Source: a virus. Taken from it: a stretch of DNA of 64,000 nt. Shown here one piece after another: positions 7,086 to 62,019 of this stretch. The notes beneath the pieces were generated by a model. That model was not told the origin of the DNA, did no database searches, and was given only the letters and a program-made list of their open reading frames with translations. The stretch spans positions 1-64,000 of the IMG/VR virus record IMGVR_UViG_3300022933_000005; one strand, 5' to 3'. Position numbers and translations under genes: made by a program. The first letter of the stretch is position 1. Each line of letters opens with the position of its first letter.

Positions 7086-7862
7086 GTGGACATAGACCTG
7101 CCAGTGACATCCCGTTGGGTGCGGCTCGATGAGTTGCATCCTCGGTTCAAATTACGCTTGGGGGCGTTTTTTGACGATCCGATTATTCGTGGCCGGGTGG
7201 CTATCGTGTCGGGCGTGAGAACGATGGCTGCACAGCAGGCGTTATACGATAAATATAAATCAGGCAAGGGAAACTTAGCTGCCAATCCTCAAAGACGTTT
7301 TGGAAATGGCTTTCAGGGTAGCTGGCATATGGCTCAGCCTGCATTTGACAATTACGGATTTGCTGTCGATTTTCGCATTACCGGTAAAGGCTTATCCACT
7401 TGGGAAGTCAATAATACTGCTAAGCAGTATGGCTTACACCCTACAGTGAGTGGCGAGTGGTGGCATCATCAACCATATGGGCGTTTTCTAAACGGACAGT
7501 GGAATTGGTTTGATGCTCCGGCGCTGAAGGGCGAGCAGTCTGAAAAGGCGATTCGCGTAAAAGATCAAGAATTGGCAAAAGCGAAGCATCCTCTCCAAGA
7601 ACTTGCTGAGGCTATTGCTCGTGCCCGCCGTCAAGTTTTGCGCAAGGGTGATCGCGGAGAAGCTGTAAAGCTGCTTCAAATGTTGTTGGAGAAACAGGGC
7701 ATTAGCACGGCCAAAACTTCTAGTCGCACGATGACCGGAAAAGGTATAGACGGGATCTTTGGACGCGGTACTGAACGTGCCGTAAAGCAGTTCCAAAGGA
7801 ATGAGAGCCTTACGATGGATGGCATTGTTGGTCCTGCGTCTTGGCAGGAGCTCTTCGACTAG
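7086..7862 (+). CDS. endolysin: VanY-type D,D-carboxypeptidase/endopeptidase plus peptidoglycan-binding domain
   Basis: 258 aa. Residues about 1-140 are a Peptidase_M15 (VanY-like) domain: SGVRTMAAQQALYD, then zinc ligands and catalytic residues in SWHM (His81), FAVD (Asp95) and GEWWH (Glu124, His127). A charged helical linker follows. Residues about 195-258 form a PG_binding_1 domain (GDRGEAVKLLQMLL, GIFGRGTERAVKQFQ, DGIVGPASW). It should cleave peptide bonds in the host wall at lysis. There is no signal peptide, so export needs a holin. Start GTG at 7086 has GAAGGTGAT six bases upstream. Its stop overlaps that of the convergent gene. Confidence 0.88.
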   Translation: MDIDLPVTSRWVRLDELHPRFKLRLGAFFDDPIIRGRVAIVSGVRTMAAQQALYDKYKSGKGNLAANPQRRFGNGFQGSWHMAQPAFDNYGFAVDFRITGKGLSTWEVNNTAKQYGLHPTVSGEWWHHQPYGRFLNGQWNWFDAPALKGEQSEKAIRVKDQELAKAKHPLQELAEAIARARRQVLRKGDRGEAVKLLQMLLEKQGISTAKTSSRTMTGKGIDGIFGRGTERAVKQFQRNESLTMDGIVGPASWQELFD

Positions 7863-8281: not shown

Positions 8282-8290
8282 ATCAAATAG

Positions 8291-8363
8291 CGCCCCCGGC
8301 AGGATTCGAACCTACAACCTTCGGGATAGAAGCCCGCTGCGCTATCCGTTGCGCCACGGGGGC
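8291..8363 (-). tRNA. tRNA-Arg (anticodon TCT)
   Basis: Full cloverleaf: acceptor GCCCCCG/CGGGGGC, D-arm GCGC/GCGC, anticodon loop CTTCTAT (TCT), T-arm GTAGG TTCGAAT CCTGC. The 3' CCA is not encoded. It reads AGA (and AGG by wobble). Confidence 0.93.
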
Positions 8364-8367
8364 CTAG

Positions 8368-8440
8368 CTCGGCGGGGAGGGCTCGAACCTCCAACCTTCG
8401 GGTCCAAAGCCCGACGTTCTGCCAGTTGAACTACCGCCGA
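8368..8440 (-). tRNA. tRNA-Gln (anticodon TTG)
   Basis: Acceptor TCGGCGG/CCGCCGA, D-arm GTTC/GAAC, anticodon loop CTTTGGA (TTG), T-arm GGAGG TTCGAGC CCTCC. No encoded CCA. Four bases separate it from tRNA-Arg. Confidence 0.93.
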
Positions 8441-8444
8441 TTGG

Positions 8445-8516
8445 TACCCCCAACGGGGATCGAACCCGTGTTCCCAGCGTGAAAGGCTGGTGTCCTGACC
8501 ACTAGACGATGGGGGC
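8445..8516 (-). tRNA. tRNA-Glu (anticodon TTC)
   Basis: Acceptor GCCCCCA/TGGGGGT, anticodon stem CCAGC/GCTGG with loop CTTTCAC (TTC), T-arm ACGGG TTCGATC CCCGT. No encoded CCA. Confidence 0.93.
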
Positions 8517-8520
8517 TGAG

Positions 8521-8593
8521 TGGGAGCGGCGGGAATCGAACCCGCAACCGTCGGATTAAAAGTCCGCTACTCTGCCAATTGAGTTACGCTCCC
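8521..8593 (-). tRNA. tRNA-Lys (anticodon TTT)
   Basis: Acceptor GGGAGCG/CGCTCCC, D-arm ACTC/GAGT, anticodon stem GCGGA/TCCGA with loop CTTTTAA (TTT), T-arm GCGGG TTCGATT CCCGC. Confidence 0.93.
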
Positions 8594-8597
8594 GAAG

Positions 8598-8681
8598 TGG
8601 CGATGGCGGGATTCGAACCCGCATGACTCAAGAGTCGGGAGATTTTAAGTCTCCTGTGTATGCCTATTCCACCACACCGCC
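8598..8681 (-). tRNA. tRNA-Leu (anticodon TAA)
   Basis: 84 nt with a long variable arm as expected for Leu. Acceptor GGCGGTG/CATCGCC, anticodon stem GGAGA/TCTCC with loop CTTAAAA (TAA), T-arm GCGGG TTCGAAT CCCGC. First tRNA of the cluster in transcription order; it reads UUA. Confidence 0.92.
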
Positions 8682-8873: not shown

Positions 8874-9320
8874 CTAGAACGGGTCTTTGACCAGTTCCTC
8901 TTCTACTTGTTTGCGCGGAGACGTAGCCGTAGCTCTCTTGGAGCCACCTTCTGCGTTGTCCCCAGCGCGCTTGCGAGTGAAGTCGGAGATGCTGCGAGTC
9001 TGGATGGCGATGTTCTCAGCCACCACTTCGACGATGTTTTGTTTGGTCCCATCATCTTTTTCCCAGACGCGCTGTTCCATGCGACCGGTGACGATAACGC
9101 CAACACCCTTCTCTAGAACGTCTGCGGTATCGTCGGCGAGCTTTCGCCATGCGATGACGTTGAAGTAGGAGGTGTCCTCTTCCCATTCGTCTGTCTTGGC
9201 GTTCTTCCAGCTGCGGTTACAGGCAATGCTGAACTTGAGCTTGGAGATGCCCGAATCGGTGTATTTCATTTCCGGGTCTTGGGTTACGTTGCCGCAACCG
9301 GTGAATGTCGAATTGTTCAT
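8874..9320 (-). CDS. ssb: single-stranded DNA-binding protein
   Basis: 148 aa OB-fold SSB: NSTFTGCGNVTQDPEMKYT at the N-terminus, KLKFSIACNRSW, DTSYFNVIAWRKLAD, and VIVTGRMEQRVWEKDDG, then a disordered basic/acidic tail ending in the protein-interaction tip EEELVKDPF. It protects ssDNA during phage replication and recruits partners through the acidic tip. I start it at the ATG at 9320, which fits the SSB N-terminus and has GAAGCGAG upstream, rather than the longer frame. The divergent 9408 gene faces it. Confidence 0.93.
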   Translation of the reverse strand: MNNSTFTGCGNVTQDPEMKYTDSGISKLKFSIACNRSWKNAKTDEWEEDTSYFNVIAWRKLADDTADVLEKGVGVIVTGRMEQRVWEKDDGTKQNIVEVVAENIAIQTRSISDFTRKRAGDNAEGGSKRATATSPRKQVEEELVKDPF

Positions 9321-9370
9321 TTCAGCTCGCTTCTCTTGGGTTTGGGGGAGAACCCCCATCGTTGTGTAGG

Positions 9371-9407: not shown

Positions 9408-9686
9408 ATGCCTACGAAAAATGCTGACTTGCGACTGAAGGTTATGAAGCACATCACCGTGATGCTGCTGGCCATTTCGGACGATGACGAGAGTCTTACC
9501 GACGCCGAGCTGGACGAACAGTACAATGACGCAGAGGAGTGGGCAGACTTGCTGTTGGAATCCATGGGATTCACCATTACAGAAACAACAGATGACGATA
9601 CTATTACGGCTACCTGCAAGCTTGAGGACATTGAGGCGTTCTTCACGGCCAAGTCCAAGGAGTATTTGGTAGCCGAAAACTTGTAG
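9408..9686 (+). CDS. small acidic protein (92 aa)
   Basis: Acidic helical protein with a basic N-terminus (PTKNADLRLKVMKHITVMLL), an acidic centre (SDDDESLTDAELDEQYNDAEEW) and a C-terminal LEDIEAFFTAKSKEYL. No family is recognised. The start at 9408 follows the promoter-like element by eight bases. It is the first gene of a + operon with the lytic transglycosylase (start 9696), so it could be a regulator or a cytoplasmic partner of the exported proteins. Confidence 0.6.
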   Translation: MPTKNADLRLKVMKHITVMLLAISDDDESLTDAELDEQYNDAEEWADLLLESMGFTITETTDDDTITATCKLEDIEAFFTAKSKEYLVAENL

Positions 9687-9695
9687 GAGGACCAA

Positions 9696-10715
9696 GTGCG
9701 ATACGACATCCGCAGCCGTGTCAAAGCTTTGACAATCTTTTCGGTTTCAGTTCTAAGCCTTTACGGTTTGACAATATGGGCCGACAGCAGGAGTGTTGCC
9801 GACCAACCTTTTAATCTCACGCGAGAAGATCTGCCCGTATCGGGGTTGAGCGTCAGTGGCGCTACCACTACGACCGCTCAGCCGGTGATCACTTGGGTGG
9901 CCACCTCGACCACGACTACAACCACCACGACGACTGCGAACCTTCCGACAGTGGAGGTGTTGGAGCCACCTCCGGATTGTGTGGTGTTGAGTGAAATACC
10001 AGAAGGATGGGCTCACCCTCTTCCAGAGTGGCCTCCCCATTGGGGAGACATCAATAACTATCCAGAATGTCCCCCAGATAACCACACTCCAGAGTTCTAT
10101 GACGATGAATTCAATCAGGAAGTAACGGTTACCGAATTATCACCTGAATTTGTAGAGACCTTTATCGAAGAGACAATCTTGGAGATTCTCAAAAGCGAGT
10201 ACACATTTTTTCGCTTTGACGAGGATGTGAAGATTCTCCAACACTATTTAGAAGTAGATGTAGACGGCATTTATGGCCCGATCACTCGTGGAGAACACAT
10301 CAGGGCTCTTGTCCGGCTAGGACAATGGCAGCCTGTTGATATGACCTTCAGCTTGGATGAAATAGTTGGAGATGGCGGGTACGACTATCCGATGGACCCC
10401 GAGAAGCGTTGCCCCGAGTGGGAGGACACGTTCGTTGCTTATGGCCTCGTCCCTGTCGACGTTTGGTCGTATGTTGCTTGGAAGGAAAGTCGCTGTAGGC
10501 CGACGGTCGTCAACGACACGTTGAATTCAGACGGTTCGATTGATTATGGCCTTGTGCAGATCAACTCGATTCACCGCAGGGCCGTATTCAAGGTGTGTGA
10601 GGGATGGGATCTGGAGGTAATGCTGCTTGATGTCGATTGCAACCTGCGTATGGCGCGATATTTGATGGACAACACCCGCAACCGGTTAGGAAACTGGCGC
10701 ATCTACATGTACTAA
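9696..10715 (+). CDS. exported lytic transglycosylase-like protein (339 aa)
   Basis: GTG start with GGAGG five bases upstream. Residues about 11-29 form a membrane anchor or signal. A Thr/Ser-rich linker follows (T runs at 57-60 and 72-80). Residues about 175-205 resemble a peptidoglycan-binding repeat (LQHYLEVDVDGIYGPITRGE). The C-terminal domain (about 238-339) is SLT/lysozyme-like: WKESRC with Glu264 as the likely catalytic acid, then DYGLVQINSIHRRA. It should cut glycan strands from outside the membrane. It is not the main endolysin; it may be a tail-associated or superinfection/lysis enzyme. It pairs with the exported protease downstream. Confidence 0.7.
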   Translation: MRYDIRSRVKALTIFSVSVLSLYGLTIWADSRSVADQPFNLTREDLPVSGLSVSGATTTTAQPVITWVATSTTTTTTTTTANLPTVEVLEPPPDCVVLSEIPEGWAHPLPEWPPHWGDINNYPECPPDNHTPEFYDDEFNQEVTVTELSPEFVETFIEETILEILKSEYTFFRFDEDVKILQHYLEVDVDGIYGPITRGEHIRALVRLGQWQPVDMTFSLDEIVGDGGYDYPMDPEKRCPEWEDTFVAYGLVPVDVWSYVAWKESRCRPTVVNDTLNSDGSIDYGLVQINSIHRRAVFKVCEGWDLEVMLLDVDCNLRMARYLMDNTRNRLGNWRIYMY

Positions 10716-10724
10716 CCAGTACTA

Positions 10725-11750
10725 ATGAAATCACTACTACTAGCAATACCCCTACTAATGAATCAATGCTCTGCGGCGGATCACATCGCCTATTGGAGTG
10801 AACCTCCGCCGCCCGTATGGGAACAGGTGTACGAGGATGTCCGCGATCTTGCGACTGACCGTCACAGGCCGGGTCAAGAAATTGATTTACGGGTAGCTCC
10901 CGATTTTCCCGCTGATCGTTTAGACGCCGTAATGGGCTTGTACGAAGAGGCCATCGGGTTTTGGTCAGGGGCGTTCGATTTTGATGTAGCACTTCCCCTT
11001 ACGGTGATGGATTCAGGGGACCGAGACTGGTGGGAGTCAACCACTACCAGAGGACCGCGTGATTTGTTCTCCCCACATTGGTGGAAAAGTTCCGTCCGGT
11101 CAGGGGGAACTGTTGGGATGGTGGATGCCGACGAGACTGGAATGCCGCACGTCATTGTGGTATCCGGAAGCAAGACGGATTTTGAACATTTTGGTGCGTT
11201 TAGTGCCGCGTTGATAGCCCATCATGAAAGCGCTCATTGGTACCAATATCAGGTAAGCGGTTGGATGACCGACAAGTGTTCAAACCCGAATTGGGAAACG
11301 GTAATGGGGTGGGAGAACTGGTCGATGCCGTGTCCGTGGACGCTGTTGCCCTGCTGGTTTATTGAGGGACACGCGGAGTTGTACACGATTCCATTTGGGT
11401 CGGAGCCCGGTACCTTGCGCGGTCTACGAATCTGGCAGATTACGAATTCTGACAGGTTGACTGAAAATGACCTATTGGAACGTTTGCAGCGTACCCAACA
11501 CAATTCGGTGACGAAGAACTATGAATGCACACGAGAGATCCAGTATTCGATGGGTCTGCTCGTCAACGAGAAATTGTTTTACGACTTTGGGGACGCGAAA
11601 GTTAACGAACTGTGGTTAGCGATAAACCAGCCGAGTAGTTCAACCCGGTCGGCTTGGGAGGTCGCGTTCAGCGACACATTTGGCATGACTGCTGAAGATT
11701 GGTATACAATTTCAGCTATTCCCTATCTTCTAGGAGTATTCGAAGACTAG
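10725..11750 (+). CDS. exported zinc metalloprotease, gluzincin-like (341 aa)
   Basis: N-terminal signal (KSLLLAIPLLMNQCSA), with a Cys at 15 that could be a lipidation site though the lipobox is poor. The core motif is HHESAH (HExxH, His167-Glu168-His171) and, 43 residues on, WFIEGHAELY, where Glu214 fits the third zinc ligand of gluzincins (EGxA type). Cys185, 203 and 210 may form disulfides. An exported phage protease is unusual; possible targets are surface proteins, pili or S-layer. It lies nine bases after the transglycosylase with no clear ribosome-binding site. Phage families with this exact layout are not known to me. Confidence 0.65.
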   Translation: MKSLLLAIPLLMNQCSAADHIAYWSEPPPPVWEQVYEDVRDLATDRHRPGQEIDLRVAPDFPADRLDAVMGLYEEAIGFWSGAFDFDVALPLTVMDSGDRDWWESTTTRGPRDLFSPHWWKSSVRSGGTVGMVDADETGMPHVIVVSGSKTDFEHFGAFSAALIAHHESAHWYQYQVSGWMTDKCSNPNWETVMGWENWSMPCPWTLLPCWFIEGHAELYTIPFGSEPGTLRGLRIWQITNSDRLTENDLLERLQRTQHNSVTKNYECTREIQYSMGLLVNEKLFYDFGDAKVNELWLAINQPSSSTRSAWEVAFSDTFGMTAEDWYTISAIPYLLGVFED

Positions 11751-12347: not shown

Positions 12348-13205
12348 CTATGAGTCTAGAGCGTCAATCTGGTCTGCGATTCTCCTGAGTTGATCAGACA
12401 AACTCGGAGTCATCTCTGCCATCGTGTCTACCGGTTTCGGAGACGCTTTAATGAATGGCACCGGATTTTCAGATTCTGCGGTTTCCCTAGCAGCTTCTTC
12501 TTTTTCGGCGATCATCTTGGCGAGGCCCGCCCAGTCGATGCCCGGGTCGGCGACATCAGGGCCGAGGTTCTCCAACTTGTAATCGGAAATGTCCCACGCC
12601 ATGTTCTCAGGGGCCACGGCTGGACCACCGTAGTAGGCATCTAACCACGCCCATGTGACAGCGGTCTTGTCGGTAACGACAAGGTTGTGACGAACCCAGT
12701 CGCCACCATCGACGCGAGCCCGAATGAAGCCCTCGTCGAAATCGGCTTCACATTCAAAGAGAACGGGATTACCGCCTACCTTGAGTTGTCCGACCTTGAC
12801 CGAATCACCCCACTTGGGGACCTGTCCAAGATGGTAGAAATACATGCCGATGGGCATGTAGCCATCCTTAGTCTTACCGAACCATGTACGGAATGAGAAG
12901 CCGTCAGGATCAGGCTGTCGGTTTCCGTGCCCGTAGGACCGGCCTCTGGCGTCCTTGTAGCGCAGATCAGCGAACCCCAGTGTCTTGCCAGTGCTGTGGG
13001 AGTTCCAGTTGCTGAGTGCCCTGACCATGTAGGACACCTTCACATGGCGGCAGGGTGGCACTTCCTTGTAGAGAGCGCACCCGTAGTGGTCGCCGGTTCG
13101 GAACATCAGCCGCAAAGAGTCGCCACTTACATAAGCGTTGTGGACCTTCCCCTTCCATGAATCCTGCCAACCATCTTCAAATGTCTCGTGAACTAAGAGG
13201 CTCAT
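12348..13205 (-). CDS. jelly-roll protein, polysaccharide lyase-like (285 aa)
   Basis: Residues about 1-220 are beta-rich with many aromatic residues (HETFEDGWQDSWKG, HYGCALYKEVPPCRHVKVSY, GFADLRYKD, FSFRTWFGKTKDG, IGMYFYHLGQ), resembling concanavalin-like folds of polysaccharide lyase families such as PL14. I cannot place catalytic residues. The C-terminal 60 residues are helical and charged. In phages such domains bind or cut capsule or wall glycans, often in tail proteins, but this gene lies in an early-type operon. It overlaps the Lys/Ala/Pro-rich gene upstream (ATGA). Confidence 0.45.
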   Translation of the reverse strand: MSLLVHETFEDGWQDSWKGKVHNAYVSGDSLRLMFRTGDHYGCALYKEVPPCRHVKVSYMVRALSNWNSHSTGKTLGFADLRYKDARGRSYGHGNRQPDPDGFSFRTWFGKTKDGYMPIGMYFYHLGQVPKWGDSVKVGQLKVGGNPVLFECEADFDEGFIRARVDGGDWVRHNLVVTDKTAVTWAWLDAYYGGPAVAPENMAWDISDYKLENLGPDVADPGIDWAGLAKMIAEKEEAARETAESENPVPFIKASPKPVDTMAEMTPSLSDQLRRIADQIDALDS

Positions 13206-13588
13206 TGGCGGCGCCCAAACAGTCGGGAGAAGAAACCTCGTTTCTTCACGACAATTGGTGATTCCATTTTCTCAGCAGCAGGAGGAGGTTTCGGAGCGTA
13301 AGGCAGCGGATCTTTCTTTTTCGCCGCTTTCTTTGCCGGGGGTGCCGAAGCACGTTCTTTCGCTGCCGGATTCCGTGGTGGAGTAGTAGCGCGAGTTCCA
13401 GATTTTGCTGCTGGCTTTTGGGCCGCAGGCTTTTTCGCCGCTGGCTTACTGGCTGCTGCCTTTTTCGCCGCTGGCTTACTGGCTGCTGCCTTTTTCGCCG
13501 CTGGCTTTTTGGCTGCTGCCTTTTTTGCCGCTGGCTTTTTGGCTGGAGCTTTCTTTTTAGCTGCGGGTTGTTTTTTCTTTTCAGCCAT
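13202..13588 (-). CDS. Lys/Ala/Pro-rich histone H1-like protein (128 aa)
   Basis: Residues 1-63 are tandem AAKKPAAKKAA-type repeats like the C-tails of histone H1 and actinobacterial HupB/Lsr2-like chromosomal proteins. A Pro/Lys-rich middle follows, and then a short distinct C-terminus KKRGFFSRLFGRR, a basic amphipathic patch that could bind membrane or protein. It likely binds DNA non-specifically. ATG at 13588 has AAAGGAC upstream. First gene of the six-gene minus operon; the repeats are also DNA repeats (13431-13550). Confidence 0.65.
   Translation of the reverse strand: MAEKKKQPAAKKKAPAKKPAAKKAAAKKPAAKKAAASKPAAKKAAASKPAAKKPAAQKPAAKSGTRATTPPRNPAAKERASAPPAKKAAKKKDPLPYAPKPPPAAEKMESPIVVKKRGFFSRLFGRRQ
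13431..13550. repeat. four tandem 30-bp units inside the H1-like gene
   Basis: Units at 13431, 13461, 13491 and 13521. The first two are identical and the others diverge at a few positions. They encode ten-residue AAxKPAAKKA units and explain the protein repeat by recent duplication. Confidence 0.7.
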
Positions 13589-14573: not shown

Positions 14574-15500
14574 ATGAAAAAAATAACGTTGCCATTTTTG
14601 ACGGCAGGCGTTCTCGCAGGTTTACTGATGTTTGCGACCCCTGCGACCGCTACTCACGACGCGATCTACTCACCCTGCTCCACGGAGTACGGGTTCATCC
14701 ACATGACTTACGACGAGTGGGCCGCACACATCACCACGATGGAAGCTGACGGCACGATCCCTCCCGGCATCGTCTTCCGCTACTACGAAGAACTCCACGG
14801 AGGCAAGGGCACAAACGTCCAAGAGGATGGGACTATCCCGGCGTGGGATAACTGGGCTGGCGGTCTGACCGACGGGCAGATTCTGTCCATTGACGATTGG
14901 GCCAACGGTAACTACCCAGAGATCGAAGCGTTGATGTTCAGTTCGGGTCTAATCCCCGAATGGATTCTGGACGCCAACATGGTTATTCGCCGGTTCAACG
15001 ATCCCTACTGGGCCGCAGCGAACCCGATGACCCCAACCTTTACCGTCTGGCAGTCGCTCTGCATGGGTGACTACGGGTATTCCATACCTGTCATGGAGAT
15101 CAACGAAGACGGTGTGTGGGTTTCGAACCTTCCAGCGACCACAACGACGGTGGCTCCAGCTACGACTACTACGACAGTCGCACCGGCCACGACTACGACG
15201 GCTGCTCCAGCTACTACTACGACGACCCAAGCTCCCCTGCCCGATCCCGAACCCGGACCCGCACCCGAACAAAGCACTCCTGCCCCACCGCCTTCTTCGT
15301 CGGGTCTCCCTGACGGGTATGACCTGTTCGACGCCGAGTGGGACGGGTACCCCTTCGAGTACACGGTCCTTCTGTTGGAGGAACGGTACCCACCGGGGAC
15401 ACCGGGCAAGTTCCATTTCCGGCTGTCATACGCCGTTGAGTTTCTCCGCAACGGGGGGATGGTCAGGGGATTGGACAACCTGTGGGAGTCCACTTCCTGA
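14574..15500 (+). CDS. secreted protein with Thr-rich linker (308 aa)
   Basis: Clear Sec signal peptide (residues 1-27, hydrophobic core then ATPATA-T). Two soluble segments: about 28-190 (SIDDWANGNYPEIEALMFSSGLIPEWI, with a Cys pair) and about 245-305 (YPFEYTVLLLEERYPPG...), both with helix-turn-helix-like spacing of short repeats, joined by an ATTTTVAP-type linker (about 192-222) and a Pro-rich segment. Such linkers are common in exported actinobacterial proteins. I do not recognise the folded parts. It is probably released from, or attached to, the host surface. Confidence 0.65.
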   Translation: MKKITLPFLTAGVLAGLLMFATPATATHDAIYSPCSTEYGFIHMTYDEWAAHITTMEADGTIPPGIVFRYYEELHGGKGTNVQEDGTIPAWDNWAGGLTDGQILSIDDWANGNYPEIEALMFSSGLIPEWILDANMVIRRFNDPYWAAANPMTPTFTVWQSLCMGDYGYSIPVMEINEDGVWVSNLPATTTTVAPATTTTTVAPATTTTAAPATTTTTQAPLPDPEPGPAPEQSTPAPPPSSSGLPDGYDLFDAEWDGYPFEYTVLLLEERYPPGTPGKFHFRLSYAVEFLRNGGMVRGLDNLWESTS

Positions 15501-24884: not shown

Positions 24885-24943
24885 TAATACCAATAGATGG
24901 CTATCGCGAATGACGAAGCGCAAATCAGTGAAGCAATTTTCAT
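24869..24943 (-). CDS. 24-aa membrane peptide
   Basis: ATG at 24943 forms an ATGA overlap with the stop of the Zeta-kinase gene and has GGAAAG eight bases upstream. The product is one hydrophobic helix (KIASLICASSFAIAIYWYYW) with a basic end (FKK). The good ribosome-binding site and coupling argue for translation. A role in head maturation, membrane contact during ejection or regulation is unknown. Confidence 0.45.
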   Translation of the reverse strand: MKIASLICASSFAIAIYWYYWFKK

Positions 24944-27681
24944 TGGTTATCTTTCCAATACCTTTCTACATACTTTGCACCGATGTCACCGAAGAAGGCA
25001 TCGAACTCAGTTTTGCTATTGATTTCGAAATGCCCATCTCTATTTCTGAACGCTATCAGTCTTGGCGCATCTCCAGTGTTCTCCCACAGGAAGAACTCGT
25101 CATATAGGCCTTCTGTTATTTGTCTACTTACATGGCCTCTTAGTTCTCCAGCGATTTGGGTACCAAAACCGGTTGGGATATCAGGCCCACCAGCTGCTTT
25201 TCGTTGGGCGATCCTCTTATTTGCTACATCGCCGGGGACATGAACAAAATGACCAACAGTCGAATAACCGCGCGATCTAGCAGTACGGAGGTGTTCGGCT
25301 CGTTTCCCCGTGCCCTGCACTACAGCATCCATCTTGGCGTTGATGGCACTATCCAGAACGCCGCGAGTCGCTGTAACGGATGCTCCGTGGAATGCCATAG
25401 CGTTTTTGGGGTCCCAGCCCTCTAGGCCCGTTTTGATGAAATCCGGATCTATGTGGGCAGCTTCAGTGTCGTTTGGAACACTTATGGAGCCATTGCTAAT
25501 CAAAGTGGACTTACCGGAACCCGTTGTACCACCAATGAAGTAAAGGGTTCTATCTTCCTTGTCTCTGTGTTCTGGCTTGACCTTGGCAAGTATTCGTTGG
25601 CCCATTGCTTTTCCGCCGCTACCAAAGCGTCCGCTTCGCATCCCACCTGAAAAATCATTGCGTATCTGGAGTGCTTCACGTTTCATCTTGTCTGAAGCAA
25701 CCGCTCGCACACTTGCTGGGGCTTCAGCCCAAAGACCGGGATTATCTTGAAGTATCTTAAGCCACTCTTTTTCACTAGGGCTTAAACGATCTCTACGCGA
25801 ACGCAGACCCTGACCGGGGTCGAGGGCAATTCGCCCTTCAGCGAGCTCGCCCCTGATTGCGTCTGCGTTGGCCCTTTGAGCCAACTTGGCTTCTAGGGCT
25901 TCGCGATAATTGTCTCTGGCGGATTCAGTGCCGTTCCCGTGGTATTTACTAATCTGATCCTGAATGAAGTCTATTTCACGTTGTATATCTGAAGTTTCTT
26001 CTCGTATCCGAATCAAATCATCCCAGTAGCCGGTGTATTCGTTGAAGGTATCCCTTCCCCATTGATCTTCACGCCACTCAGGTTCACTACTGCCACCGTA
26101 TGGCAGATCTGCTTCGTTGGTTTCGAAGGGACCGTATTCACGCTCAATAAAGGTATCCCTATCTTCGTCGCCGTCGATAGCCGCTAAGAAATCTCTAGTG
26201 TCTGCGTGATATGGCCTTGAAGCGCTTTCCGTTGCGCTATCGAGCTCATCTTCTTTTTCCCTGAGTTCAGTTGTTAAGTCGTTGCGTTCAATCCCTGAAT
26301 TTTCAATAAAGTCTGCCCACCACTCGACCTGACTCCAAAGCTCGTCATGCTCTTCGATAATGTTTTGATCTATTTCGGGTAAATCTGCGAACTCGTCTCC
26401 ACTCGCATATTCGTCTGTTGACGGTTCTCCTACTTGCCGAATTCGCCTATCGTTAGGTCGATGAATGGAATATCTATGAAAATCAATTCGATTATGTTCA
26501 TCTAAGAAAGCGAAATACTCATCTATGTCAGCTCCCATATCTTCAATATTTTGCTCAGGGGTCTGAAGCATATGATCGATTTGCCGTCGAGAACGTATGC
26601 CACCATTTGCAGAAGCTCCTAACGATAGAGCCGATCTGCTTTTACCCATGGCGGTACCGAGTTCTTCACGAAGACGCGATTCTTCCTGTTGAAGTGGCGC
26701 CATCATGCCCCTAATGCGAGCAACGTCAGCGTGACTACCTTCCTTTTGGGCTTTCTTGAGTTGTTGAAGGAGAGGGTCGAGTTTCTCCGTTCGCAACTTG
26801 TCAATTTCCTTGCTAAGAGACGCCATTCTGACTTCGTCGGTTACGGGTTCTGGCTTTGCTTTAGGTTCTGGACGTTTCAGCGTGCCGGGTTTCCCATCCC
26901 AAACGGAACGCACACCTCTTTTTTTCCCGGGGAGGTTGGTGTTAAGCCCGGGGATGGCAGGGCGTGCGTATGGGGTGCCCTCTTGAACTATCCCGTCGTT
27001 GTCGCCATCCCAAGCCTTTGGGTCAAACCGTGCGGTACGTCCGATACGGCGACCAATACCTTTAACTTCGTACACTTCTTCGAATAGACGCTTTTTACGT
27101 CGTTTCATTTTAGATAGCTCGTCACGAACAATGTTTCGTATTCGTTGACGTTCCAGTCTTTGCTGGTAGCGCCTTCCAAGAGCTGTACTGCCAGTGGCTC
27201 GTGCATAGTCCGTCATGTTGGTGCACGGGGTCCAAACCCTACGTCCGCTACGGGATATACGTCTAGATACACCGATACATCCCAATTGGCGTGCTCTACG
27301 ACGCGCTTGGTTGATGTTGTCGAAAACGTCCGTGTCACCGTCTACAGGTCGAAAAGTCATACCCTTGCCGGATACGAGTCCGCCACCAGACAGAGTGTCA
27401 ATTCCAGTGACACCCCGTTCTCTCAATTTGTCCCATTGGCGCTTAGTTTTCTTCTTGCGTTTGCGACCCTTTTGGGAACGGATCTTCTGAGTTTCTTCAA
27501 CGACATCTAAAGCGCTTTTTTCTTTTTCGCCGTTGGTGAGGCGCTCGTATTCTTCCATGGTGCTGCACGCCATCCATGTTCCATCGGGATGACGGTGCGC
27601 ACCGGTACAGCCGAGTTCAGCAGCCTCTCTTAGAGCCTGCGCTTTCTTGGCAGTTTCGGAGTCCGTGCGTGCCTCGGGCAT
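24940..27681 (-). CDS. giant multidomain protein with C-terminal Zeta-toxin-like kinase (913 aa)
   Basis: N-terminus: two copies of a Cys motif (LGCTGAHRHPDGTWMACST near residue 25, and LGCIG...VWTPCTNMTDY near 134), then a basic segment. The shared DxDxDG cassette starts at Phe219. A long charged helical region follows with GxRS linkers (GIRS, GLRS, GMRS at 680-683). The C-terminal domain (about 710-860) is Zeta-toxin/P-loop kinase: GGTTGSGKST (Lys724), HIDPDF (Asp745), MAFHGAS. Zeta kinases phosphorylate UDP-N-acetylglucosamine precursors; here the substrate is unknown. It is probably a packaged polyvalent effector. No antitoxin-like partner is seen. Confidence 0.75.
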   Translation of the reverse strand: MPEARTDSETAKKAQALREAAELGCTGAHRHPDGTWMACSTMEEYERLTNGEKEKSALDVVEETQKIRSQKGRKRKKKTKRQWDKLRERGVTGIDTLSGGGLVSGKGMTFRPVDGDTDVFDNINQARRRARQLGCIGVSRRISRSGRRVWTPCTNMTDYARATGSTALGRRYQQRLERQRIRNIVRDELSKMKRRKKRLFEEVYEVKGIGRRIGRTARFDPKAWDGDNDGIVQEGTPYARPAIPGLNTNLPGKKRGVRSVWDGKPGTLKRPEPKAKPEPVTDEVRMASLSKEIDKLRTEKLDPLLQQLKKAQKEGSHADVARIRGMMAPLQQEESRLREELGTAMGKSRSALSLGASANGGIRSRRQIDHMLQTPEQNIEDMGADIDEYFAFLDEHNRIDFHRYSIHRPNDRRIRQVGEPSTDEYASGDEFADLPEIDQNIIEEHDELWSQVEWWADFIENSGIERNDLTTELREKEDELDSATESASRPYHADTRDFLAAIDGDEDRDTFIEREYGPFETNEADLPYGGSSEPEWREDQWGRDTFNEYTGYWDDLIRIREETSDIQREIDFIQDQISKYHGNGTESARDNYREALEAKLAQRANADAIRGELAEGRIALDPGQGLRSRRDRLSPSEKEWLKILQDNPGLWAEAPASVRAVASDKMKREALQIRNDFSGGMRSGRFGSGGKAMGQRILAKVKPEHRDKEDRTLYFIGGTTGSGKSTLISNGSISVPNDTEAAHIDPDFIKTGLEGWDPKNAMAFHGASVTATRGVLDSAINAKMDAVVQGTGKRAEHLRTARSRGYSTVGHFVHVPGDVANKRIAQRKAAGGPDIPTGFGTQIAGELRGHVSRQITEGLYDEFFLWENTGDAPRLIAFRNRDGHFEINSKTEFDAFFGDIGAKYVERYWKDNQ
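26923..27027 (-). repeat. Excalibur-like cassette, copy in the 913-aa protein
   Basis: FDPKAWDGDNDGIVQEGT followed by RPAIPGLNTNLPG. DGDNDG with Glu at loop position 10 matches the DxDxDGxxxE spacing of Excalibur/EF-hand-like calcium loops. Confidence 0.75.
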
Positions 27682-59549: not shown

Positions 59550-60332
59550 ATGAAGGGTAACTACAAAGTCCACGAGTCTCTCAACGAGTTGCTTGTCCCA
59601 TTGAGCGACCTCCAGCCCCTTCTCAATAACCCAAGAGTTGGAAATGTTGAAGCGATCGCTGCGTCATACGATGAATTTGGTCAAGTGAAGCCCATTGTGA
59701 TTCGTCTGAACGAAGACGATAAGGCCACGGTTATCGCTGGCAACCATCAGGTTGAAGCAGCCAAGAAGCTTGGCTGGACTCATATTGCCGCTGTGCCCTT
59801 TGATGGGGATGACAAACGAGCTGTTGCTTTTGCCCTTGCTGACAACCGGACAATGGAGTTGGGCCATACAGATAACACCAAGGCTGTCGACATGATTCTG
59901 AGTGTTGTTGATGAGTACAGCGATCTTATGGGCGACTTGGCGTGGGACGATTTCGAGATTGCTCTTTACGAAGAGCAGGCAGAAATCGCCGCAGACAGAG
60001 AAGATGGCACCACAACATTTACTCGTCCGTCTCTGATCGACAGGATGGATGATGCGCTAGATGCTTTAGTGCAGGATGGCGAGGATGGGGAACGAAAGAT
60101 TGTCGCCGACGACAGTGTCGACCATAACGATATTGCTATTCAGGGCAGCACAGTTACGCCTCAGGGTGAGTCAAATAAAGCAGTTGTCCAGTACACCTTG
60201 GTTTTCGATGATCCTGCCCAGCAGAAAGATTGGTACACCTTTGTGCGATGGCTTCGCGGGCAACCGGCCTATGAAGGCGATACAACTGCAGAGAAGTTGA
60301 TGTCATTTGTCGAGGCGCACTCAGAGTTATGA
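59550..60332 (+). CDS. ParB/sulfiredoxin-like protein, first copy (260 aa)
   Basis: Residues about 15-115 form the ParB N-terminal fold: VPLSDLQPLLNNPRVGNVEA, VKPIVIRLNE, TVIAGNHQVEAAKKLGWTHI and ALADNRTMELG. A C-terminal region (about 190-260) with YTLVFDDPAQQKDWYTFVRW looks like a second small domain. Related phage proteins may be nucleases or nucleotide-binding switches. Start ATG 59550; GTG 59544 is possible. It is coupled to the PAPS reductase-like gene, as in IbrB-IbrA pairs. Confidence 0.75.
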   Translation: MKGNYKVHESLNELLVPLSDLQPLLNNPRVGNVEAIAASYDEFGQVKPIVIRLNEDDKATVIAGNHQVEAAKKLGWTHIAAVPFDGDDKRAVAFALADNRTMELGHTDNTKAVDMILSVVDEYSDLMGDLAWDDFEIALYEEQAEIAADREDGTTTFTRPSLIDRMDDALDALVQDGEDGERKIVADDSVDHNDIAIQGSTVTPQGESNKAVVQYTLVFDDPAQQKDWYTFVRWLRGQPAYEGDTTAEKLMSFVEAHSEL

Positions 60333-61456
60333 CTCGTCAGCGGATGTTTCTAGACATCACATGTCTCGATGCTGCTCGTCAACGGATACGTCACGTTTAC
60401 GACACCTTCGATACCGTTTGTATTCAATTCTCTGGAGGCAAAGACAGTACGGCTGTTCTCTATCTGGCTAAAGAGGTGCACGAAGAACGTGACTTAGGTC
60501 CAGTCAAAGTCATATTCAGAGATGAAGAGATGGTTAGTCCTCTCGTTCTCGAATATGTCGAAATGGTCAGAAATTTCGATTGGGTCGACATGGAGTGGTA
60601 TTGCCTCCCATACGGGGGGGAGGTATGGGTTCTGGGCCGACGACAACCCGTGGTGTTGTGGGGGGAGTATCGAGAACAAACAGGGCGATGGGTACGCGAA
60701 ATGCCGGAAGATGTAATTAGCGCAAAATCGTTCGGGCTAGAAGGGGGTCAACCCCTACCTGAAGCTGTTGATTTTTACACGATGCAAGGGAAGCAAGGAA
60801 GCGTCGCCTTCATTACTGGCGTCCGGGCTGCCGAGTCGATGATCCGTTACCGATCCTTGGTGCAGAAGCTGCACGAGAATTACATCGTCACACCTTTCGG
60901 CATCAAGCGTGGAACACCTCTCAAATTTGCGAAGGTGATTTACGACTGGAATGTTAACGATGTACTCAAATTCATTACCGAAGAACATAATGCCCCCTAC
61001 TGTGAGTATTACGACAGGGCAGCATTAACTGGATCGAATACTCGTGTCGGGATACCACTCCACTCTGTCGCGATTCGACGCATTGGGGATGTGGTTGCCA
61101 CAGAACCAGAATTCTACGACAAGCTGTATGAATGCTTTCCCCAGATCGACGCTCAGCGTCGTTGGTGGAAGGACTTCGACATTGAGCAATTGATCAACAA
61201 CTATGCCGACGAGGGTTGGGACGGCGTAACTAGTGTCATCGAGGATTACATGATCGGTGATTCAAAAGCTCGAAGGGCTAAGGCGTATGCGGCTGAATTC
61301 AGAAAGAAACATGCTTTAGATCCGCACTCGTATCCGATTAATTGGTTAATCAGGAATCTCCTACTCAACGAACTCACCACAACTTCAGCCTCCCCCGTGG
61401 GGCCAAAAACGAGAGCCCACACAGTGAGGCAGAAAGCAGCAGAGGAAGCCTCATGA
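60329..61456 (+). CDS. PAPS reductase-like PP-loop protein, IbrA-like (375 aa)
   Basis: PP-loop SGGKDSTAVL (35-44) binds ATP; FRDEEMVSPLVLEYVEMV and the later WNVNDVLKFITEE fit the PAPS reductase/DndC/IbrA group. The CxxC of sulfate reductases is not clear, so sulfate reduction is unlikely. In E. coli the IbrA/IbrB pair couples this fold to a ParB-like protein. Here it lies between two ParB-like genes. Possible roles are DNA or nucleotide modification or transcription control; not decided by sequence. Confidence 0.75.
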   Translation: MTRQRMFLDITCLDAARQRIRHVYDTFDTVCIQFSGGKDSTAVLYLAKEVHEERDLGPVKVIFRDEEMVSPLVLEYVEMVRNFDWVDMEWYCLPYGGEVWVLGRRQPVVLWGEYREQTGRWVREMPEDVISAKSFGLEGGQPLPEAVDFYTMQGKQGSVAFITGVRAAESMIRYRSLVQKLHENYIVTPFGIKRGTPLKFAKVIYDWNVNDVLKFITEEHNAPYCEYYDRAALTGSNTRVGIPLHSVAIRRIGDVVATEPEFYDKLYECFPQIDAQRRWWKDFDIEQLINNYADEGWDGVTSVIEDYMIGDSKARRAKAYAAEFRKKHALDPHSYPINWLIRNLLLNELTTTSASPVGPKTRAHTVRQKAAEEAS

Positions 61457-62019
61457 GTGCAGAGCAATACACGATGTGGGTTCGGGATTACGAGGAGCTC
61501 AATATTCCAGAGTGGAATGCCACATATATCCTTAGACCGGATTTGTTGGTCCTGACAGCGGCCCTAATGGATTATGGGGTGCTTTCCCCACTTGTTGTTC
61601 AGAAGGACGGCATGAACGTAATTGACGGCTCTCAGCGGCTGCGAGCAATCAGGGGTAATAAACACCTGTCAGAACGGTTTGCTGATGGCGTACCTATTCA
61701 TGTGATTGATTGTGGCGAAACTGAGGCTATGGCTCTACACGTTCAATTGAATCGTGGTCGTGGGAACATGGTTGCCCATAAATTATCTCGAATCGTAAAA
61801 CAACTGAAAAGATCTAGAGCATTTTCGGTAGAAGATTTCGTGGCTCGTTTTTGTATGAAGGGCGATGAATTGGAATTGATGTTGGATGGCTCGATCATTA
61901 AGCACCGAAAAGTTCCGAATCATCGTTATTCGATGGCATGGGTTCCGGTGGAAGCTCCGCCCGGAACTGTTGACAAAAAAGAAGTCACAACAGAAAAACC
62001 TCCTAACGCCGATAGGTAA
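61453..62019 (+). CDS. ParB/sulfiredoxin-like protein, second copy (188 aa)
   Basis: Start at ATG 61453 overlapping the PAPS-like stop (ATGA). ParB-type fold: YILRPDLLVLTAALMDYGVL, SPLVVQKDGMNVIDGSQRLR, AIRGNKHLSERF and MALHVQLNRGRGN. A C-terminal extension with HRKVPNHRYSMAWVP is Pro-rich. It differs clearly from the first copy (no close repeats) and may form a complex with the PAPS-like protein. Confidence 0.75.
   Translation: MSAEQYTMWVRDYEELNIPEWNATYILRPDLLVLTAALMDYGVLSPLVVQKDGMNVIDGSQRLRAIRGNKHLSERFADGVPIHVIDCGETEAMALHVQLNRGRGNMVAHKLSRIVKQLKRSRAFSVEDFVARFCMKGDELELMLDGSIIKHRKVPNHRYSMAWVPVEAPPGTVDKKEVTTEKPPNADR

Follow-up and report, generated by a model that had tools for sequence, protein, structure and literature searches.

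A gluzincin-type protease that looks exported in a tailed-phage fragment, and its relatives in uncultured viruses

What a phage might do with a protease outside the host membrane is the question raised by one segment of the window, a 64 kb stretch of a 91,339-base IMG/VR virus record. Genes for a portal, terminase, major head protein and DNA primase/helicase were found in the window, which is thus a tailed-phage fragment. The terminase has its nearest counterparts in Brevibacterium and Gordonia phages and also, oddly, in methanogen phages, and from the sequences we infer an actinobacterial host. The original prediction placed an operon for an exported lytic transglycosylase and an exported gluzincin protease at positions 9408-11750, where three genes are present, all on the + strand. 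Both predicted genes are real and lie within this range, one for the transglycosylase (9696-10715, matching PF18896 and PF01464) and one for the protease (10725-11750, with HESAH and EGHAE motifs). Position 9408, however, is the ATG of a 92-aa acidic open reading frame (9408-9686) that had gone unmentioned, and not the start of the transglycosylase gene, which lies 3' of it. This small frame had no family match above cut-off; it is kept at 93% in the related genome G001, inside a 135-aa frame there. The transglycosylase gene ends 9 bases before the protease gene starts. Scans for consensus promoters and terminators gave no more matches than chance, so it is the gene spacing that speaks for an operon.

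The 341 aa product of the protease gene was assigned from its motif, homologues, profile matches and structure model. H167-E-S-A-H171 (11223-11237, + strand) would provide zinc ligands and the catalytic glutamate, and E214 of E214-G-H-A-E218 (11364-11378, + strand) the third zinc ligand. The pattern HExxH-x(20-80)-ExxxE arose in 73 of 20,000 shuffles of the protease sequence; H167, E168, H171 and E214-E218 are identical in homologues at 54-59% identity, and a 19-member family sharing 15-26% identity has H167, H171, W211, E214, G215 and A217 among its best-conserved alignment positions. Taken together, these observations make a chance origin of the motif appear unlikely. AlphaFold2 modelling with the 19-member alignment gave a pLDDT of 76.5 and a pTM of 0.78, with the two motifs in predicted helices 161-177 and 210-219, while an alignment of four close sequences gave a pLDDT of 28.7. 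When the model was compared with the PDB using Foldseek, the top six matches were all M1-type zinc peptidases (probability 0.44-0.94, E 0.12-0.85); a search of BFVD returned nothing convincing. The predicted zinc site is intact, and its residues are invariant in the close homologues. The protease has HExxH and a downstream glutamate ligand, conserved in homologues, and its assignment as a gluzincin is well supported; zinc binding and peptidase activity would be expected of it.

Searched singly, the protease had no credible match in Pfam, PHROGs, NCBIfam, PADLOC, PDB sequences, INPHARED or PLSDB, and no named PHROG or NCBIfam family was reached at E 0.01. Searches of Pfam, PHROGs and the PDB with four close homologues found nothing. 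The Peptidase_MA_2 model (PF13485, curated cut-off 32.4 bits) had no match in the window genome and scored 17.7 bits, below that cut-off, on a distant relative in G006 only. Close homologues occur in a handful of viral contigs: they are near-identical in G002 and G003, 96% identical in G001 (L003) and 54-59% identical in G004 and G005 (L011 and L012), with a fragment in G007 (L042).

Scanning viral contigs with the degenerate motif P-x-W-[FL]-x-E-G-x-A-x-Y returned 35 stretches and disclosed a wider family. About 16 of these encode proteins of 320-415 aa that carry HExxH, EGxAxY and a leader at the N-terminus, falling into roughly seven sequence groups as grouped by reading. A profile, A4, was made from 14 divergent relatives of exported appearance on other viral contigs, P0002 included and sequences of the window group excluded. 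Run against the window genome, it picked out the protease (E 1.8e-12), the match covering the third-ligand region and the C-terminal part, and hhalign of A4 against the four close homologues gave 98.1% (E 7e-14, 249 columns); the A4 members had been gathered by a motif nearly shared with the window protease, and the alignment extends far past that motif. The nearest distant relative is L085, at 26%. P0002 (the same protein as L019) shows by itself a weak relation (hhalign 13.9%) that becomes convincing only inside the wider profile. Family members weakly match Peptidase_MA_2, M9, M61 and flagellinolysin, all of them zinc-peptidase families, with the Pfam models below cut-off. With some 16 viral contigs encoding proteins of one profile family, a phage-made protease of this kind cannot be called rare, as it had been. 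Other matches, to W[FL]xEGxAE, were set aside, either as very long proteins of another kind (L017, L018, L021, L022, L024 and L025) or because they lack HExxH and look like chance (L023, L032-L034 and L036-L040).

Among the carriers, G018 and G021 were confirmed as viral by a terminase gene and G013 by a major head protein gene; several other carrier contigs have endolysin genes, and the remainder are labelled viral by IMG/VR. Aquatic actinobacterial hosts are assigned to these uncultured phages by inference. The queried family members had no relative in INPHARED genomes, and no cellular relative of the protease appeared in two scans of genome contigs, which reach close relatives only. In the L070, L076, L078 and L081 groups, class Ia ribonucleotide reductase genes, a gene for a protein of 700-800 aa (Pro-rich in the L070 group) and the gene for the exported gluzincin occur in a common order. 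In L088 and L099 (HSYAH) and in P0002 (HKSLH), the zinc histidines and the EG motif are kept and the HExxH glutamate is replaced. These three are possible pseudo-proteases; with the catalytic glutamate gone from them, proteolysis may not be what every family member does.

Both products of the gene pair look exported, in agreement with the original prediction. The transglycosylase has a hydrophobic N-terminal segment (about residues 9-29; 9720-9782, + strand) that is kept in L003 and has a counterpart in the relative from phage DSL-LC01, and the protease begins with a short leader, MKSLLLAIPLLMNQCSA (residues 1-17; 10725-10775, + strand), shared with its homologues. A leader of the form MKSxLLxxxLLxxxC is common to all four full-length protease homologues, across which MKSxLL, C15, four further cysteines and the zinc motif residues are invariant. 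The residue preceding C15 is Q, Q, Y and C in the four, which departs from the lipobox pattern (A/G/S before Cys, PS51257-like); a lipoprotein formed through C15 is possible. Typical Sec-like N-terminal leaders are borne by the roughly 16 more distant relatives. Six cysteines are conserved in the transglycosylase, and those of the protease would suit an oxidising compartment. It is from the conserved leader, the Sec-like leaders of the distant relatives and the conserved cysteines that export of the protease is argued. The endolysin encoded 2.9 kb upstream of the protease gene (7086-7862; PHROG 2649, with a peptidoglycan-binding domain) differs in having no cysteine and, as had been stated, no leader.

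The transglycosylase, of 339 aa, is encoded by a gene with a GTG start and AGGAGG just upstream. Behind a hydrophobic anchor or signal at the N-terminus come a Thr-rich linker, a peptidoglycan-binding-like repeat (about residues 176-209, DVKILQ..L.VDGIYGPITR; 10221-10322, + strand) and a C-terminal lysozyme-like SLT domain (residues 254-334; 10455-10697, + strand). The repeat was recognised by eye and by alignment with P0003, and was not detected by Pfam. The protein scored above the curated cut-offs of PF18896 (SLT_3; 34.7 bits, E 2.5e-8) and PF01464 (SLT; 22.5 bits, E 8.9e-5), and matched the EtgA lytic transglycosylase in the PDB (E 6.6e-5). E264 and D283 are conserved; with the curated cut-offs passed and the catalytic Glu retained, it qualifies as an SLT-type lytic transglycosylase. 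As a second endolysin, the one without a leader, is encoded at 7086-7862, the transglycosylase need not be the lysis enzyme.

Comparison with related genomes indicated that the protease gene moves. From the portal and terminase genes on into the head-tail region, the window genome, G001, G004 and G005 keep the same gene order. The protease gene of L011 and L012 is near the terminase, between a PAPS-reductase-like and a ParB-like gene; the same site is empty in the window, where the PAPS-reductase-like stop overlaps the ParB-like ATG by four bases (61453-61456, + strand). One phage group thus carries this gene at two different places. The L011 and L012 contigs, which are fragments, yielded no transglycosylase relative, and the proposal that transglycosylase and protease form a functional unit was not borne out there. 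Comparing the window with L003 gives a synonymous divergence of 0.07 for the protease, 0.63 for the transglycosylase and 0.84 for the gene at 12348-13205, and saturation for ribonucleotide reductase; nucleotide identity is 95-100% across most of the protease and about 85% past 11.8 kb. The low divergence relative to the neighbours and the identity peak show that the protease gene was recently exchanged between relatives. Since the SSB gene (8874-9359) has synonymous divergence as low as that of the protease gene, the exchange may have come in pieces. The protease dN/dS of 0.216 in two independent pairs indicates purifying selection.

The window contains further genes that are described here for completeness. 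A 308-aa protein (14574-15500) has a Sec-like leader, a Thr/Ala/Pro linker and two conserved cysteines; it is 78-80% identical in G001 and G007, has no credible family match and, judged by these features, is probably also exported. The major head gene adjoins a gene for a 913-aa protein (24940-27681) that starts with DUF3721 and has a Zeta-toxin/AAA-like kinase domain at about residues 700-830. The PAPS-reductase-like gene and the overlapping ParB-like gene that follows it (60329-62019) are kept across the phage group. A Lys/Ala/Pro-rich repeat protein (13202-13588) resembles the tail of histone H1, and its repeat number varies among relatives. Five tRNA genes (Arg, Gln, Glu, Lys, Leu) form an array on the minus strand at 8290-8681.

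From these data the window protease is very probably an exported gluzincin with no part in the virion. As it belongs to a recurrent family that moves within viral genomes, it is probably a tool directed at the host surface rather than a part of the particle. In the best explanation, where export, zinc binding, activity, expression timing and the benefit of surface cutting are all inferred, the phage would make a zinc-dependent peptidase of the gluzincin class that crosses the host membrane, remains on or near the cell exterior and there cuts host envelope proteins. Loss of surface proteins would ease the release of progeny, which is the first choice, or would remove receptors. The neighbouring transglycosylase would be a separate wall enzyme, placed in the same gene string in the window lineage only. 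That the role is the cutting of host envelope proteins is an evenly balanced judgement, whether it serves release or exclusion. An M23 or CHAP endolysin gene with a peptidoglycan-binding domain stands about 1 kb from the gluzincin gene in the groups of L070 and L065, and in the window the protease gene has the endolysin gene 2.9 kb upstream and the transglycosylase gene next to it. This vicinity leans towards the final, lytic phase of infection; in G004/G005, G016 and G018/G021 the gluzincin gene is not close to endolysin genes.

The mobility of the gene fits superinfection exclusion equally well. By that account a protease anchored at the surface shaves off receptors, so that further phages cannot adsorb, and a cassette-like gene found at varied genome positions, exchanged between relatives and not bound to one lysis module is what accessory (moron) genes look like. 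Exclusion is nevertheless a doubtful reading, as the gene lies between terminase and head-tail genes in G004 and G005 and so is probably late, and the open-licence literature searched gave no precedent for a secreted phage metalloprotease or gluzincin in superinfection exclusion. It is unlikely that the protease is instead an auxiliary secreted hydrolase of host origin, serving nutrition or the handling of exported phage or host proteins and having no role in lysis or exclusion. The nearness of relatives in other phages to ribonucleotide reductase genes and the resemblance of the family to secreted bacterial peptidases (M9, M61, flagellinolysin) are consistent with such a hydrolase, but the two genome-contig scans, within their reach of close relatives, gave no cellular counterpart.

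Lytic enzymes are part of the tail in many phages, and a virion-associated protein aiding entry would have been in keeping with this; it is highly improbable here given the leader, the conserved cysteines and the position of the gene. In the window, head and tail genes occupy about 23-54 kb and the part past 62 kb, and neither the protease nor the transglycosylase gene is inside these modules, as expected from the original view that they are not structural tail parts. Equally improbable is a zinc-binding, non-catalytic surface protein, a decoy or mask for which proteolysis is ancestral only: L088, L099 and P0002 do keep the histidines and the third ligand without the glutamate of HExxH, but the window protein, L003, L011, L012 and about 16 further relatives retain the full motif.

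Phage proteins whose targets beyond the host membrane are other proteins, not peptidoglycan or glycans, have been little studied, and the recurrent, apparently secreted protease family found here is absent from the phage protein catalogues and INPHARED genomes searched. It offers a lead on surface alteration of living cells, superinfection exclusion and release from protein-rich envelopes. A tentative generalisation is that these proteins form an as yet unnamed gluzincin family that is widespread in uncultured phages, travels as a mobile cassette and, during infection, reshapes the set of proteins on the host surface, some of its members having become catalytically dead zinc proteins. If true, mobile secreted gluzincins would make up a new class of phage effectors acting outside the cell.

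In INPHARED the transglycosylase has a single relative, the SLT protein of Actinomycetia phage DSL-LC01 (46% across residues 169-337), which likewise has an N-terminal hydrophobic leader, a peptidoglycan-binding-like part and an SLT domain, and keeps E264, D283 and four cysteines; the Thr-rich linker region is longer in the window protein. No protease of the window gluzincin family was found in DSL-LC01, the genome of which is a lake metagenome assembly with an actinobacterial host by prediction only (PMC10611076). The likeness of the transglycosylase to EtgA (PDB 8urn, 4xp8) is confined to the catalytic domain around E264 and D283. Exported phage endolysins are of the signal-peptide or SAR type; like them, the transglycosylase is a wall hydrolase that begins with a hydrophobic stretch and bears a peptidoglycan-binding-like repeat.

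For the protease, Peptidase_MA_2 (PF13485), Peptidase_M9 and flagellinolysin (NF033876) share the third-ligand motif P-x-W-F-x-E-G-x-A and a helical C-terminal part. These models are matched by family relatives, whereas the window protease itself matches none of them and has no flagellin or collagenase setting. The best fold matches of the model are to the Deinococcus radiodurans M1 zinc metallopeptidase (PDB 6iff, 6a8z). Compared with M1 peptidases and M61 glycyl aminopeptidases, the window protease is shorter, with a short leader, about 42 residues between the zinc motifs, an identity of 10-14% and a best fold E of 0.12; with them it has in common weak profile matches and the placing of HExxH and a downstream glutamate in helices, in its case predicted ones.
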